This document shows, piece after piece, positions 6,000 through 43,723 of a DNA stretch of 64,000 nucleotides (within the stretch, counting starts at the first letter, position 1; every line of letters starts with the position of its first letter). This DNA is from Saccharopolyspora phatthalungensis (GTDB taxonomy: Bacteria; Actinomycetota; Actinomycetes; Mycobacteriales; Pseudonocardiaceae). The notes beneath the pieces were generated by a model. It worked only from the letters and a program-made list of their open reading frames with translations. It was not told where the DNA came from and searched no databases. The stretch is taken from positions 248,001-312,000 of the forward strand of contig NZ_JACHIW010000001.1 of the NCBI RefSeq assembly GCF_014203395.1, read 5' to 3'. Both the position numbers and the translations under genes were made by a program.

Positions 6000-7463
6000 T
6001 CAGCCGACGGCCCCTTCCATCTGCAGCTCGATCAGGCGGTTCAGTTCCAGCGCGTATTCCATCGGCAGCTCGCGCGCGATCGGCTCGACGAAACCGCGCA
6101 CGATCATCGCCATCGCCTCGTCCTCGGTCAGGCCCCGCTGCATCAGGTAGAACAGCTGGTCGTCGCTGACCTTGGACACGGTCGCTTCGTGACCCATCGA
6201 CACGTCGTCGACCCGGACGTCCACGTACGGGTAGGTGTCGGAGCGGCTGATGGTGTCCACCAGCAGCGCGTCGCACTTGACGTTGGACGACGAGTGGTGC
6301 GCCCGCTTCGCGACCTTGACCAGGCCCCGGTACGAGGTGCGTCCGCCGCCCCGGGCGATCGACTTGGAAACGATCGTCGAGGACGTGTGCGGCGCCAAGT
6401 GCTCCATCTTCGCGCCCGCGTCCTGGTGCTGGCCCTCGCCGGCGAAGGCCACCGAGAGCACCTCGCCCTTGGCGTGCTCGCCCATCAGGAACACCGACGG
6501 GTACTTCATGGTCACCTTGGAGCCGAGGTTGCCGTCGACCCACTCCATGGTGGCGCCCTCTTCGGCCTTGGCCCGCTTGGTGACCAGGTTGTAGACGTTG
6601 GTCGACCAGTTCTGGATCGTCGTGTAGCGGCAACGGCCGCCCTTCTTGACGATGATCTCCACGACCGCGGAGTGCAGCGAGTCGCTGGAGTAGATCGGCG
6701 CCGTGCAGCCCTCGACGTAGTGCACGTAGGCACCCTCGTCGACGATGATCAGGGTCCGCTCGAACTGGCCCATGTTCTCGGTGTTGATCCGGAAGTAGGC
6801 CTGCAACGGGATGTCCACGTGCACGCCCGGCGGCACGTAGATGAACGAGCCGCCCGACCACACCGAAGTGTTCAGCGCGGAGAACTTGTTGTCACCGGCC
6901 GGGATGACCGAACCGAAGTACTCCTTGAAGATCTCCGGGTGCTCCCGGAGACCGGTGTCGGTGTCCAGGAAGATGACGCCCTGTTCCTCAAGGTCCTCGC
7001 GGATCTTGTGGTAGACGACCTCCGACTCGTACTGGGCGGCCACACCCGCGACGAGGCGCTGCTTCTCCGCCTCCGGAATGCCCAGCTTGTCGTAGGTGTT
7101 CTTGATGTCCTCGGGCAGATCGTCCCAGGTCTGGGCCTGCTGCTCGGTGGAGCGGACGAAGTACTTGATGTTGTCGAAATCGATCCCGGAGAGATCGGCA
7201 CCCCAGTTCGGCATCGGCTTGCGGTCGAACAACCGCAACGCCTTCAACCGGGTCTCCAGCATCCACTCGGGCTCGTCCTTCTTGCCCGAGATATCGCGGA
7301 CGACGTCCTCGTCGAGGCCACGACGGGCGCTGGCGCCCGCGGCGTCCGAGTCGGCCCAGCCGTACTCGTAGCTACCCAGCGTCGCAATGGTTTCTTCCTG
7401 GCTGAGCTGGCCAGAGGCGTTGGGCGCCGTGGTGGGTGTGCGCTGCTCCGCAGCGGCAGTCAT
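6000..7463 (-). CDS. sufB: SufB scaffold subunit
   Basis: A 487-residue SufB, the main scaffold on which Suf builds iron-sulfur clusters. It matches the family along its whole length, including an N-terminal [11 protein letters not shown] region, the [10 protein letters not shown] beta-helix region and the C-terminal [17 protein letters not shown]. No intein is present, unlike the SufB of M. tuberculosis. GGAGGGGAG precedes the ATG, which overlaps the sufR stop by four bases (ATGA). It is therefore the second gene of the SufR-controlled operon. Confidence 0.96.
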
Positions 7464-38514: not shown

Positions 38515-40570
38515 TGCTCTCCCCTTCAGCGTTGTCGGCGCCGGGCTCGGCCCGGTCGTCCGGCACCGGGCGTGGCCCGGCTCCCCCGTCGGCCGCCAGC
38601 GCCGAGTGCACGGTCTCGGCGGTGCGGCGGCCGATCCCGGGCACCGCGGCGATCTCGTCCACCCCTGCCTGGCGCACCTTGCGCACCGAACCGAAGTGCT
38701 TGAGCAACGCCGCACGGCGAGTTTCGCCCAGTCCCGGAATCGCGTCCAATGTGGAGCTTGTCATGCGCTTGGCGCGCTTCGCGCGGTGGTAGCTGATGGC
38801 GAACCGGTGCGCCTCGTCGCGGACCCGTTGCAGCAGGTAGAGCGCCTCGCTGGTGCGCGCCAGGATCACCGGGTCGGGGTCGGCGGGCAGCCAGACCTCC
38901 TCCAGCCGCTTGGCCAGCCCGATCACCGCGACGTCGGTGATGCCGAGCTCGGTCAGCGCGTCGGCGGCGGCGTTGGCCTGCGGCGCGCCACCGTCGATCA
39001 CCAGCAGGTTGGGCGGGTAGGCGAACTTGCGCGGGCGGCCGGTCTCCGGATCGATCGCCGCGCCGACCGGACCCGAACCGGCCTGGTCCACCCGGGGGTC
39101 GACCGGCCCGGAGCCCGACTGCGCCGGCTGGGCGCCGACCTTGCCGGTCTCGCTGAGGTAGCGGTGGAAACGGCGGCGGACCACCTCGTCGATGGAGCCG
39201 ACGTCGCCGCCCGCGGCGCCCTCCCGGACCTCGAAGCGGCGGTACTCGGACTTGCGCGGCACGCCGTCCTCGAACACCACCAGCGACGCGACCACATCGC
39301 TGCCCTGCACGTGGCTGACGTCGATGCACTCGATCCGCAGCGGCGCGGTGTCCAGCGACAGCGCTTCCTGGAGCTCCTGCAGCGCCGCCGAACGCGCGGT
39401 CAGGTCACCGGCGCGCCGCAGCTTGTACTGCTGGAAGGATTCCTTAGCGTTGCGCTCGACGGTCTCCATCAGTGCACGTTTGTCGCCGCGCTGCGGAACC
39501 CGGAGGCTGACCCGGGCACCGCGCAGCTCGCTGAGCCATCCGGCGATCGCGTCCGTGTCCTCGGGTAACTGGGGCACCAGCACCTCGCGCGGTACCGGGC
39601 TGCCGCCGGCGTCGGCCTGGTCGGCCAGTGCCGCCTGCTCGCCGTAAAACTGGGTAAGGAACTGCGAGGTGAGGGCGGCGGTTTTGGTTTCCTCGACCTT
39701 GTCTATGACCCAGCCGCGCTGGCCACGCACCCGGCCGCCGCGAATGTGGAAGACCTGCACGGCGGCGGCGAGCTCGTCTTCGGCGAAGGCGACCACGTCG
39801 GCGTCGGTGCCATCGCCGAGCACCACCGCCTGCTTCTCCATCGCGCGGCGCAGGGCCTCCAGATCGTCACGCAGCCGGGCGGCGCGCTCGAACTCCAGCT
39901 CCGCGGAGGCCGCCTGCATCTGCTTGTCCAGCTTGCGCATCAGCTGGTCGGTGTGTCCGGCCAGAAAGTCGCAGAAGTCGTCGACGATCGACCGGTGCTC
40001 CTCGGTGCTGACCCGGCCGACGCAGGGCGCCGAGCACTTTCCGATGTAGCCGAGCAGGCAGGGGCGGCCGATCTGCGAGTGGCGCTTGAACACCCCGCCG
40101 GAGCAGGTGCGTGCGGGAAACACCCGCAGCAGCAGGTCGAGTGTTTCGCGGATCGCCCAAGCGTGCGCGTACGGGCCGAAGTACCGCACGCCCTTGCGGC
40201 GCGGGCCGCGGTAGACATGCAGGCGCGGGAACTCCTCGTGCAGCGTGACGGCCAGCACCGGGTACGACTTGTCGTCGCGATAGCGGACGTTGAACTTCGG
40301 GTCGTACTCCTTGATCCAGGAGTATTCCAGTTGCAGCGCCTCGACCTCGGTGCCGACGACGGTCCACTGCACACCGGTGGCGGTGGTGACCATCTGCCGG
40401 GTCCGCGGATGCAGTCCGGCGAGGTCGGCGAAGTACGACGACAGCCTGCTGCGCAGGCTTTTCGCCTTGCCGACGTAGATCACTCGGCCGCCGACATCGT
40501 GGAACCGGTAGACGCCGGGGGCGTCCGGGATCGTGCCTGGCGCTGGTCGGTAGGTGGACGGATCGGCCAC
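38507..40570 (-). CDS. uvrC: Excinuclease ABC subunit C
   Basis: A 687-residue UvrC, the nuclease of nucleotide-excision repair that cuts on both sides of the lesion. The GIY-YIG domain is at 15-95 (PGVYRF ... [14 protein letters not shown]). A cysteine-rich link ([16 protein letters not shown]) follows, then a UVR motif (residues about 205-240) and the RNase H-like domain with [11 protein letters not shown]. Two HhH motifs close the protein ([17 protein letters not shown]). It is complete. A degenerate copy of an internal piece lies about 2 kb away at 42510-42708. Confidence 0.96.
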
Positions 40571-40640
40571 GCCTCCACCCTACGTGCGCGGCCCGACCAC
40601 CTGGATCTCGGTGGGCGGACCGACGTGGGCGTGCCGACAT

Positions 40641-40794
40641 GGCACAGTGGGTGGAGCCGTGATCACGTTTCTCGATCAGGAATTGCGCCGTACTGGGAGG
40701 TCAGCCGTGAACGAGAACGCCCGTCCCGAACGCGACGCTGTCCGAGATCGCCCCGGGCGTGCATGCGTGGGTTCAGCCGGACGGCTCGTGGTGG
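40641..40794 (+). pseudogene. Truncated, frameshifted copy of the 5' end of the MBL-fold gene
   Basis: These 154 bases match 42722-42877 with five substitutions and one two-base deletion (GAACG-CGAC for GAACGCGCGAC). The deletion shifts the frame after about nine residues. The copy stops at TCGTGGTGG, where the intact gene continues. It sits where the real gene would be expected, divergent from uvrC. It marks one side of the insertion that carries the XRE gene. Confidence 0.85.
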
Positions 40795-40837
40795 ATGCTT
40801 TCTAAATCACGTATCCATAGGTCAGAGCCTCATCGGC

Positions 40838-41950
40838 TTACACGAGTTCATCGAGCCGACGGGTCAGTTTGTCCAGATCCTCCCGAGCCCGTACAGAGTT
40901 GACTGCGGTCATTGCCTGTCTCGCTGCGTCTGCCTGCTCTCGTGCGTCCTCTACCCTGCCCTGAGCTAGACGGACCAGACCAAGACGGGTTAGGACCATG
41001 ACCCTCCCTCGACCCCTCTCAGGGCCGAAGTCCAGGAGGGTTTGTTGATAGTACGCGGCGGCCTTGCTGTACTCCCCAATTGCTCTATACGAGTGGCCCA
41101 GTATCGCGCACAGGTGCGGTTCCGACAGGAACCCGGCCCACGAGGGCACCCCGTCCGGGTATTCCTTGCCAATCAGATCCTCAGCCAGTCCCAGCAGATT
41201 CCGCGCTTCGCGCACATTCCCCGCGTTGCCAAGGTGGCGAGCTAGCCCGGCGGCCACGTTGGCACGCTCCAACGGATGCACCCGGCTCTCTTGGTAAACC
41301 CCTGTAAGCATCGATGCCGCGTCTACTGGTCGAGTCTCCATGAACAAGGAGACGTTAAGGCGGACATGCGCGGTAAGGGTCGGATCGTTTCCCTCATTGC
41401 CGGTACGGATCGCCAACTCAGACAGACGCCCAGTCTGGTATTTAAGCCCGGAATCGTGGAAAGACCACGCAACCCGGTCCGAGAGCGACGCCACGGCGCT
41501 ATACAGGGCCTTGCGGGTACCGGATGTCATCGGCCGGTCCAAAAGACCGACGGCCCACCGCAGGGACTCTCCCGCGACACCGGCCGCGACTCTGCCTCCG
41601 TACTGGAGATCCATCGCCGAGAAATGCCGGGCCGATTCCTGGACTGCCTCGACCTCGATCCTACCGACTTGACCGGTTTCTCCGGGGGAGACTAGCCCGT
41701 CTAGTAGCCGCGCCAGCGGTTCACTCGCCGCAGCTGTGGCAAGCGCCGTGAGTAGTGTTCTCCTGTCCATGTCGTCTGCCAGTCCTTCCACACCTAGAGC
41801 CCGTTCGTACGCCTTTATGTGCTTGTGGAGTACCGGTCGCTTGCCGGTCTCAAGCAGAGACAAATATGAAGAAACCATGTGAACTCGCTGCGACATCTCG
41901 CGGAGACTGACTCCAGCGCCTTCGCGCGCCGCCCTGAGTGTGGCACCCAT
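40838..41950 (-). CDS. XRE-family transcriptional regulator with TPR-like C-terminus
   Basis: A 370-residue protein. Residues 1-65 are an XRE helix-turn-helix (LRAAREGAGVSLREMSQRVHMVSSYLSLLETGKR). The remaining 300 are helical with TPR-like repeats (HSYRAIGEYSKAAAYYQQTL), the plan of many actinobacterial regulators that listen to a peptide or small ligand. The ATG at 41950 starts at the domain boundary; a TTG six bases earlier, right after GAGGGGGAG, is possible. Base composition is visibly lower in GC than the neighbours. It is flanked by partial copies of MBL and uvrC, so it arrived by transfer. No partner gene is present. Confidence 0.85.
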   Translation of the reverse strand: MGATLRAAREGAGVSLREMSQRVHMVSSYLSLLETGKRPVLHKHIKAYERALGVEGLADDMDRRTLLTALATAAASEPLARLLDGLVSPGETGQVGRIEVEAVQESARHFSAMDLQYGGRVAAGVAGESLRWAVGLLDRPMTSGTRKALYSAVASLSDRVAWSFHDSGLKYQTGRLSELAIRTGNEGNDPTLTAHVRLNVSLFMETRPVDAASMLTGVYQESRVHPLERANVAAGLARHLGNAGNVREARNLLGLAEDLIGKEYPDGVPSWAGFLSEPHLCAILGHSYRAIGEYSKAAAYYQQTLLDFGPERGRGRVMVLTRLGLVRLAQGRVEDAREQADAARQAMTAVNSVRAREDLDKLTRRLDELV

Positions 41951-42509
41951 ATGGGCCAAGGCTCCCCCTCTGCAAACCCCTGTCAACATTTATCCACTTC
42001 CCAAGATAGCGGCAGCTGATCAGTGTGGGTACCGAGCGGGCCCGGTTCGCAAAAACCGGGAAGCTGCGTCAACGGAGACAGCAGCGAACCGGTGCCAAAC
42101 CCCCGGCCGGGCCGCCCCGCTCACCCAAACGGACGGCACTAGGTAGGTGTTGCTGTGGGCGATGCAGTCCTGGAGCAAAACCACTGGGATCTAACCCGAG
42201 TCCTTCGGGATCGTCTACCAGCAATCCGGGAGGGGTTCTGAACCACAAAGAGCCCCTCCAAACCTGAAGTGGCCCCCGGAAGTCGGAACTGAATTTCTCA
42301 GTCCAACTTCCGGGGAGAAGTTCACTTGCGGAGGGGGTCTTTCGCTGTATCCGAATCAGAATATCTCGGCTAGCAGGCAGGCTCCGAATCTACCGCTACC
42401 GCTCGGACAACAACGAGCATACGGTTACGCCCCTGAAACACAAAAAGGCCCCTTACCTTGCCGCCGACCGCGATGCGGCATTTGGCCGCTCCGCACCCCT
42501 GCCGCCATT
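41951..42509. other. Non-coding part of the insertion between the XRE gene and the uvrC fragment
   Basis: No credible gene is seen; composition is less GC-rich than the core. It contains several hairpins: CCCGGTT...AACCGGG (42041-42060), GGAGGGG...CCCCTCC (42229-42259), and the strongest, CCCCGGAAGT...ACTTCCGGGG (42274-42315), whose stem continues inward with two mismatches and resembles a terminator. No integrase, relaxase or attachment-site tRNA was recognised. Confidence 0.5.
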
Positions 42510-42708
42510 CTGGTGATCGGTGTCGGCCGCTAGGAAGTCGCAGAGTCGTCGACGATCGACCGGTGCCCCTCGGCGCTGACCCGACCGGCGCAGGGCGCCG
42601 AACACTTACCGATGTAACCAAGCAGACACGGACGGCCGATCTGCGAGTAGCGCTTGAACACACCGCCGGAGCAGGTGCGCCCGGAAAACACCCGCAGCAA
42701 CAGACGCC
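42510..42708 (-). pseudogene. Degenerate internal fragment of uvrC
   Basis: About 200 bases align with uvrC positions 39943-40136, covering the segment that encodes the CLLGYIGKC region. By eye the identity is near 88%, with several small indels and an in-frame stop, so it is dead. The rest of the uvrC 5' half is missing, and the fragment joins directly to the upstream of the intact MBL gene at about 42709-42721. Confidence 0.85.
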
Positions 42709-42787
42709 GGAGCGGCGAAGGGGCACACTGGGTGGAGCCGTGATCACGTTGCTCGATCAGGAATTGCGCCGTACTGGGAGGTCAGCC

Positions 42788-43723
42788 GTGAACGAGAACG
42801 CCCGTCCCGAACGCGCGACGCTGTCCGAGGTCGCCCCGGGCGTGCATGCGTGGGTACAGCCGGACGGTTCGTGGTGGGTCAACAACGCCGGGGCGGTGCT
42901 CGGTGACGGCGGAATCGTGCTAATCGACACCTGCGCGACCGCCCAGCGCACCCAGCTTTTCCTCGATGCGGTGCGCGTCGCCGCCGGGGACGCGCCGATC
43001 CGGTTCGCGGTGAACACCCACCCGCACGGCGACCACACGCACGGCAACGCCCTGCTGCCCGACTCGACCGTCCTCATCGGACACGAGGCGACTCGCGAGG
43101 GCATCCTGTCCGACCCGATGCTCACGGATCCGCCACCGGTGTGGGAGCCGTCGCCGGAGTGGGGCATCACCGAACACCGCGCACCGACGGTGGTGCTGCG
43201 GGACTCGCTGACGCTGCACAGCGGCGACCGCCGGATCGAACTGCACCACCCCGGATACGCCGCGCACAGCGCCGGCGACGTGGTGGCCTGGGTGCCGGAC
43301 GCGGGCGTGCTGTTCGCCGGGGACCTGATCTTCCACGGCCTCACGCCGCTGGTGATCTCGGGCTCGTTGGAGGGCGCGCTGAAGGCGCTGGACTGGCTGG
43401 CCGGCTACCCGGCCGCGACGGTGGTGCCCGGGCACGGCGCGACCCTGCCCGGCTCGGCGCTCCCGCGGGTACTCGAAGACCACGCCCGCTATTACCGGTT
43501 CGTCCTGGACACGGCCCGCCAGGCCCGCACCGACGGCCTCACTCCGCTGGAGGCGGCCGAGCGGTGCGACCTGGGCGAATTCGCGTCGTGGCCGGAGCGC
43601 GAACGCATCGTCCTCAACCTGCACCGCGCCTACTCCGACATCGACGACACCGAACCCGACCTCGTCGCGGCGTTCACCGACGCGGTCACCTACAACGGCG
43701 GCCCCCTCCGCTGCGTGGTCTAG
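42788..43723 (+). CDS. Metallo-beta-lactamase-fold hydrolase
   Basis: A 311-residue MBL-fold protein. The metal motif is HPHGDH (H78, H80, D82, H83 in NTHPHGDHTHGN); later ligands are in HHPGYAAHSAGD, FAGDLIF and VVPGHG. It resembles the broad glyoxalase II/quinoprotein-relay group, acting on an unknown ester or amide. GGGAGG stands six bases before the GTG at 42788. An upstream in-frame GTG at 42740 lacks such a site. It would have been divergent from uvrC before the insertion at 40.6-42.7 kb. Confidence 0.85.
   Translation: MNENARPERATLSEVAPGVHAWVQPDGSWWVNNAGAVLGDGGIVLIDTCATAQRTQLFLDAVRVAAGDAPIRFAVNTHPHGDHTHGNALLPDSTVLIGHEATREGILSDPMLTDPPPVWEPSPEWGITEHRAPTVVLRDSLTLHSGDRRIELHHPGYAAHSAGDVVAWVPDAGVLFAGDLIFHGLTPLVISGSLEGALKALDWLAGYPAATVVPGHGATLPGSALPRVLEDHARYYRFVLDTARQARTDGLTPLEAAERCDLGEFASWPERERIVLNLHRAYSDIDDTEPDLVAAFTDAVTYNGGPLRCVV

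Follow-up and report, generated by a model that had tools for sequence, protein, structure and literature searches.

A scar resembling decayed insertion-duplication at the uvrC-MBL junction of Saccharopolyspora phatthalungensis

In S. phatthalungensis, the junction between uvrC and a divergent gene for an MBL-fold hydrolase (MBL) occurs twice, one copy on each side of a low-GC cargo that carries an intact regulator gene. Judged on sequence, an insertion accompanied by duplication of the junction is well supported. We give roughly an even chance to the fuller reading, in which the locus is the decayed scar of a Campbell-type insertion-duplication, most simply with a circularised molecule. Scars of this kind are already known, and the present one is a natural example that can still be read. 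Among the matches listed in a full-text literature search, none had a title concerning this locus or scars of this type in Saccharopolyspora, which does not prove their absence.

The duplicated junction and its counterparts in related genomes

The window, i.e., the whole 64,000-nucleotide stretch analysed, corresponds to G000:C1:248001-312000, G000 being the genome of the window. The preliminary description had recognised by eye a complete uvrC followed by a broken 5' piece of MBL at 40641-40794 on the left, which alignment confirmed in place, and a broken uvrC piece at 42510-42708 followed by a complete MBL on the right, where the piece as measured spans 42514-42703 (Table 1). Its estimated identities of ~96% for MBL and ~88% for uvrC agree with the measured 95.5% and 86.9%. 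The MBL pair (40641-40794 and 42722-42877) aligns over 156 columns with 5 mismatches and one 2-base gap, which shifts the frame of the left copy; this copy ends at 40794, 88 bases into MBL (counted from 40707), and 43 bp of junction DNA separate it from the regulator gene (40838). The uvrC pair (39945-40135 and 42514-42703) is 86.9% identical over 191 columns with a 1-base indel, and the right copy lacks ~0.5 kb of the uvrC 5' sequence expected to follow. The target segment is therefore doubled around the cargo, with uvrC complete at the left and MBL complete at the right, the arrangement looked for in insertion-duplication, and both neighbours visibly retain their upstream region. The copies differ by ~3% and 13%, so a duplicate created by the assembly is unlikely.

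Table 1. Features of the uvrC-MBL locus (window coordinates)
Feature	Coordinates	Strand	Evidence
uvrC, complete, 687 aa	38507..40570	-	Pfam UvrC domains, GIY-YIG, UVR
Left copy: uvrC-MBL intergenic region and first 88 bases of MBL, frame-shifted	40641..40794	+	95.5% to 42722-42877
XRE/TPR regulator, intact, 383 aa, NsdA family	40838..41989	-	NF053720, 163.8 bits vs cut-off 75; HTH_31
Insert part common to other regulator copies: gene and ~225 bp upstream	40849..42215	-	blastn vs L039, L040, L041, L050
IS3-family element end; palindrome inside inverted repeat 42247-42342	42265..42324	-	90% over 60 bp to motif adjoining IS3 orfA or orfB
Other junction DNA; 42330-42445 75% alike to G000:C2:1276932-1277040	42325..42513		sequence comparison
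Internal uvrC piece, 190 bp, broken	42514..42703	-	86.9% to 39945-40135; sister to own uvrC
Joint; ~0.5 kb of uvrC 5' sequence absent	42704..42721		repeat alignment
Right copy: intergenic region and MBL start	42722..42877	+	alignment to left copy; junction tree
MBL-fold hydrolase gene, complete, 311 aa, GTG start chosen by reading	42788..43723	+	PF00753, 69.1 bits

An MBL ortholog was found at E<=1e-100 in 20 of 22 Saccharopolyspora genomes, G000 included. The preliminary description had asked for a comparison of the junction in related genomes, and in 17 of the 19 relatives with the ortholog uvrC and MBL lie divergent, with no insert and ~120-175 bp between match ends. The insert of the window is present in none of the 19, the opposite of what that description had named as contrary to its reading, namely the same regulator and fragments in all relatives. 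A second full-length match to 42514-42703 exists only in G000 among the 22 genomes, G008 and G001 having an extra weak match of 42-43 bases. In G015, ~350 bp separate the two genes, and in S. spinosa NRRL 18395 (G005) uvrC is absent from the first 1.5 kb taken beside MBL.

The same junction of S. spinosa contains a different insert of ~1.4 kb. It lies between direct repeats of 135 bp (92.6%; L042 10333-10467 and 11833-11966), each comprising the intergenic region together with ~19 bases of the MBL start. None of the three ORFs scanned in this insert (L042 10333-11966) has a Pfam or PHROG match, and its best match in G000 is a segment of 152 bp at 75%, ~1 kb from another regulator copy. In a junction tree of 14 sequences from 12 of the 20 ortholog-bearing species, the left and right copies of G000 are sisters (0.986) to the exclusion of 11 other species, and both copies from G005 cluster with G006 (0.970). 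Given these separate lineages, and since the two inserts share no blastn match outside their flanks, the junction was most likely filled twice independently, each time with duplication. The order within the G005/G006 group has a support of 0.053, so the event in S. spinosa could date from around the time when these genomes split. A third insertion of ~200 bp is seen at this junction in G015 (L043 about 6135-6360), by eye possibly a decayed insertion sequence; no similar repeat flanks it.

Direct repeats around inserts at one junction in two species would also be expected if the junction were the attachment site of a site-specific integrative element whose integrase has been lost, the repeats being att sites, and an apparent 57-bp att pair with an adjoining integrase does exist elsewhere in the genome (L061; genes named by eye). 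However, the window repeats extend 88 bases into MBL and those of S. spinosa ~19, leaving no common attachment core, and the ORFs scanned in the two inserts (the window XRE gene, 42370-42747 minus and three ORFs of the G005 insert) include no integrase, in line with the preliminary description. These two observations make such an element unlikely, and we accord it very little probability; it would also leave the internal uvrC piece without explanation, and the window has no tRNA gene. A tRNA attachment site was likewise dismissed for L039, L040, L041, L042 and L054, none of which contains a tRNA.

A composite cargo

The regulator gene is a single open frame and, as initially described, lies in DNA of lower GC content (0.59-0.63 in the insert vs 0.66-0.75 on either side). 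A score above the cut-off of the curated profile NF053720 (163.8 vs 75 bits) places its product in the NsdA family, which it resembles in this score and in combining an HTH with a TPR-like part, whereas it scores far below the cut-offs of NsdA and NsdB proper. It belongs to a narrow group within the family, comprising 12 proteins from ~5.8 billion searched (with scores computed for 7,994 candidates), and five or more of the 12 come from this genome. The dN/dS values are 0.17-0.25 for the window regulator against four homologs and 0.14-0.30 pairwise among five intact copies. At E<=1e-60, the regulator occurs only in G000 and G005 among 61 genomes searched, scoring being limited to 31 candidates in any one genome, and a scan of named genomes, which was pattern-based and may have left out near relatives of the window, returned only S. 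spinosa.

Four further copies of the regulator are found at three other loci of G000, three of them intact (L039, L040, L041) and one, in L040, split in two by an IS701 transposase gene. Graspetide-type genes lie near the copies at all three loci: the ATP-grasp maturase TIGR04187 is above its cut-off in L040 and just below it in L039, the methyltransferase TIGR04188 has matches in L039, L040 and L041 that are all under the cut-off of 380, and L039 includes a precursor-like ORF above the TIGR04186 cut-off. The small ORFs found upstream of the other copies are absent at the window copy. Regulator copies are also repeatedly accompanied by a small ORF (L039 9511-9759, L040 9987-10220, L054 8601-8831, L115 8594-8818) that encodes an FSLCGSPVV motif together with a C-terminal Cys pair and whose L039 member has no Pfam match. 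We also considered a defence system and discarded it, the only matches being weak ones to HTH domains.

What had been described as non-coding DNA in the insert is indeed there but is not plain, as it encloses an IS3-family end (42265-42324). The motif adjoins an IS3 orfA or orfB match in 6 of the 20 loci examined and is found upstream of a transposase annotated as IS3 in one Arthrobacter plasmid; two other plasmids with the motif have no IS annotated nearby, and the window has no match to IS3 orfA or orfB. We regard the segment as the remnant of an end only, the transposase being gone. The palindrome also occurs in five other genomes of the genus and, at 81-94%, in six Arthrobacter and Rhodococcus plasmids. 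With ~170 bp of other DNA between the inverted repeat (ending at 42342) and the uvrC piece (from 42514), the insert reads as a composite of a regulator piece, an IS3-family end and further DNA.

Searches for an origin or function of this DNA gave little. A 20-base pattern near 42433, present once in the window and once in G012, led nowhere; an RNA gene was rejected with no Rfam match up to E=5, and phage cargo with no match in the phage collection. In the plasmid collection 9 records matched, 3 via uvrC-like sequence and 6 via the IS3-end palindrome, and no donor molecule was found in the phage and plasmid collections or in the 22 genus genomes. A sigma-70 consensus scan of 40500-42900 detected no promoter-like site, so that we can only infer that a promoter was duplicated.

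An IS3 end within the insert, together with pieces that differ in divergence, would suit a history in two steps, with an IS3-family element and regulator DNA arriving first and the uvrC piece being added or rearranged later via an insertion sequence. We consider this improbable, as a single IS end is left with no transposase and all four features that it needs, i.e., a second end, a target duplication, a transposase and an intermediate strain, are unseen here.

Origin of the copies and mechanism of insertion

The uvrC piece is 87.4% identical to the uvrC of its own genome vs 80-86% to that of 19 other species, and in a tree with these species it is sister to its own uvrC (support 0.885) on a long branch (0.155 vs 0.041). 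This placement, together with the sister relationship of the two junction copies (0.986), does not support a donor from a related species, as had been envisaged in the preliminary description. At the level of sequence, the copies are shown to be of own-lineage origin.

Alignment of both pairs bore out the uneven divergence suspected by eye: mismatches amount to 24/190 in the uvrC pair vs 5/154 in the MBL pair (p=0.0016), although between species it is the junction that changes faster (70-79% identity of the G000 left copy to 10 empty-site species, against 87-93% for the region of the uvrC piece). The 24 differences of the uvrC piece fall as 5, 4 and 15 on the three codon positions, and the 16 common to no other species as 4, 4 and 8, for which an even spread is not rejected (p=0.37); within these small numbers, the differences look like decay. 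A simple event is expected to leave equal divergence, an equality that later conversion or decay can break. The divergences of the pairs are not what a single event involving one outside donor would predict; gene conversion or two steps would. For any single event to account for the difference, a further step is needed, for example gene conversion.

We propose that regulator DNA, as a truncated piece of the cassette present at three other G000 loci, and an IS3-family end became joined to a uvrC'-intergenic-MBL' segment that would have come from this strain itself or from one very close to it. A single homologous exchange of this molecule, most simply circularised, with the resident uvrC-MBL junction would leave the cargo with a junction copy on either side. 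The event may have been tolerated because each neighbour stayed whole and kept its upstream region, and the spare halves would then have decayed. In E. coli, linear DNA is reported to be circularised by ligation before a single crossover (PMC3240628). A circle of the Campbell type is the simplest mechanism, one that we infer and that is not proven. The preliminary description had named Campbell-type integration outright: the left-complete/right-complete order and the empty site in relatives sustain it, whereas the unequal divergence and the composite insert go against a single circle; with an IS3 end in the insert, a simple circle is not what is seen.

A break near the 5' end of MBL could have led to the same order without any circle if fillers (the regulator fragment, the IS3 end and other DNA) were joined to it, followed by the sister chromosome inside uvrC, the tandem duplication being a by-product of repair. 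The composite insert, the joints inside genes, the own-lineage copies and the Ku encoded in the genome are all consistent with such capture during break repair, which we hold possible, though the less favoured reading, as chance breaks do not favour the filling of the same junction again in S. spinosa with the whole intergenic region doubled, and the unequal divergence is likewise left without explanation.

Other filled junctions and relation to known systems

Direct repeats of >=45 bp and >=85% identity lying 0.3-12 kb apart are absent from the remaining tiles of the window (three, of 20, 20 and 4 kb). Of 20 regions of 20 kb taken at random from G000, 4 contain them; such repeats are therefore uncommon, not unique. 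One of these four resembles an integrase-associated att pair, at nadD with an adjoining integrase (genes named by eye). In a random control (L065 14136-16553, G000), adjacent repeat pieces of 143 and 81 bp have their other copies 1.1 kb apart, which looks like the empty and filled versions of one site side by side. All four regulator regions of G000 hold repeats by the same criteria (p=0.0066, the regions having been chosen after the fact), an association that is only suggestive because 4/20 random regions hold similar repeats; in L041 the repeat pair lies all on one side of the regulator.

Two further junctions deserve mention. A DUF4333 gene (Pfam) and a helicase-like gene (by eye) lie <=1.5 kb apart in 20 of the 22 genomes, and their junction is filled in S. 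spinosa (L054 6019-10650) and in G000 (L115 8180-11426). In S. spinosa, two 46-bp copies of the 3' end of the helicase-like gene (L054 7848-7893 and 10605-10650, 95.7%) bracket the regulator; only this repeat is host-gene sequence, a 69-bp repeat falling outside the part of DUF4333 common to relatives. The G000 filler has no flanking repeat, which counts against our reading. The S. spinosa filler also includes a tetrapyrrole-methylase-like gene with weak NCBIfam matches, which resembles a borosin N-methyltransferase. GDSL and Mut7-C genes (Pfam) are both present in 9 of 15 relatives' loci, within ~220 bp of each other in 7, and GDSL was not seen in the stretch examined in the other 6. In G000 some 13.5 kb separate the two genes, and this stretch includes broken copies of both, each of them sister to the corresponding gene of G000 (0.958 in a tree with 15 relatives; 1.000 in one with 6). 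Broken host copies around cargo here resemble the window. Graspetide-type genes, regulator copies and IS701 occupy this filler (L040 464-15089; G000:C1 4570463-4585088).

A scar with both broken copies and an empty site in relatives lets one read how cargo lacking mobility genes entered a chromosome, and its recurrence at uvrC-MBL in S. spinosa adds to its interest: the independent event makes it testable whether some junctions are preferred since duplication spares both neighbours. The regulator group, which in one genome numbers four intact members plus a cut one but scarcely occurs elsewhere, and its graspetide-type neighbourhood provide a concrete cargo to follow. More speculatively, and with considerable doubt, integrase-free insertion-duplication might be a recurrent route by which junctions between housekeeping genes of Saccharopolyspora gain small cargo of regulator and RiPP-related type, junction-duplicating events surviving since both neighbours keep their upstream region, hence the refilling with different cargo.

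Among known systems, three invite comparison. Campbell-type insertion-duplication by single crossover with circularisation (PMC3240628) likewise leaves cargo between two target copies, one left-complete and one right-complete, and needs no recombinase; the window differs in being natural, old and decayed, with a composite cargo, unequal divergence and no donor circle seen. Homology-facilitated illegitimate recombination, with its small variable segments (PMC2884548), is alike in that small cargo without mobility genes lies between conserved genes and in that one end is homologous while the other joint is illegitimate, but in the window the host segments are doubled on both sides, not replaced. 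Finally, merodiploids formed by transformation with self-DNA (PMC3784515) are also tandem duplications arising in genetic exchange; theirs span ~100-900 kb and use repeats, whereas that of the window is <1 kb and holds foreign cargo in its joint.
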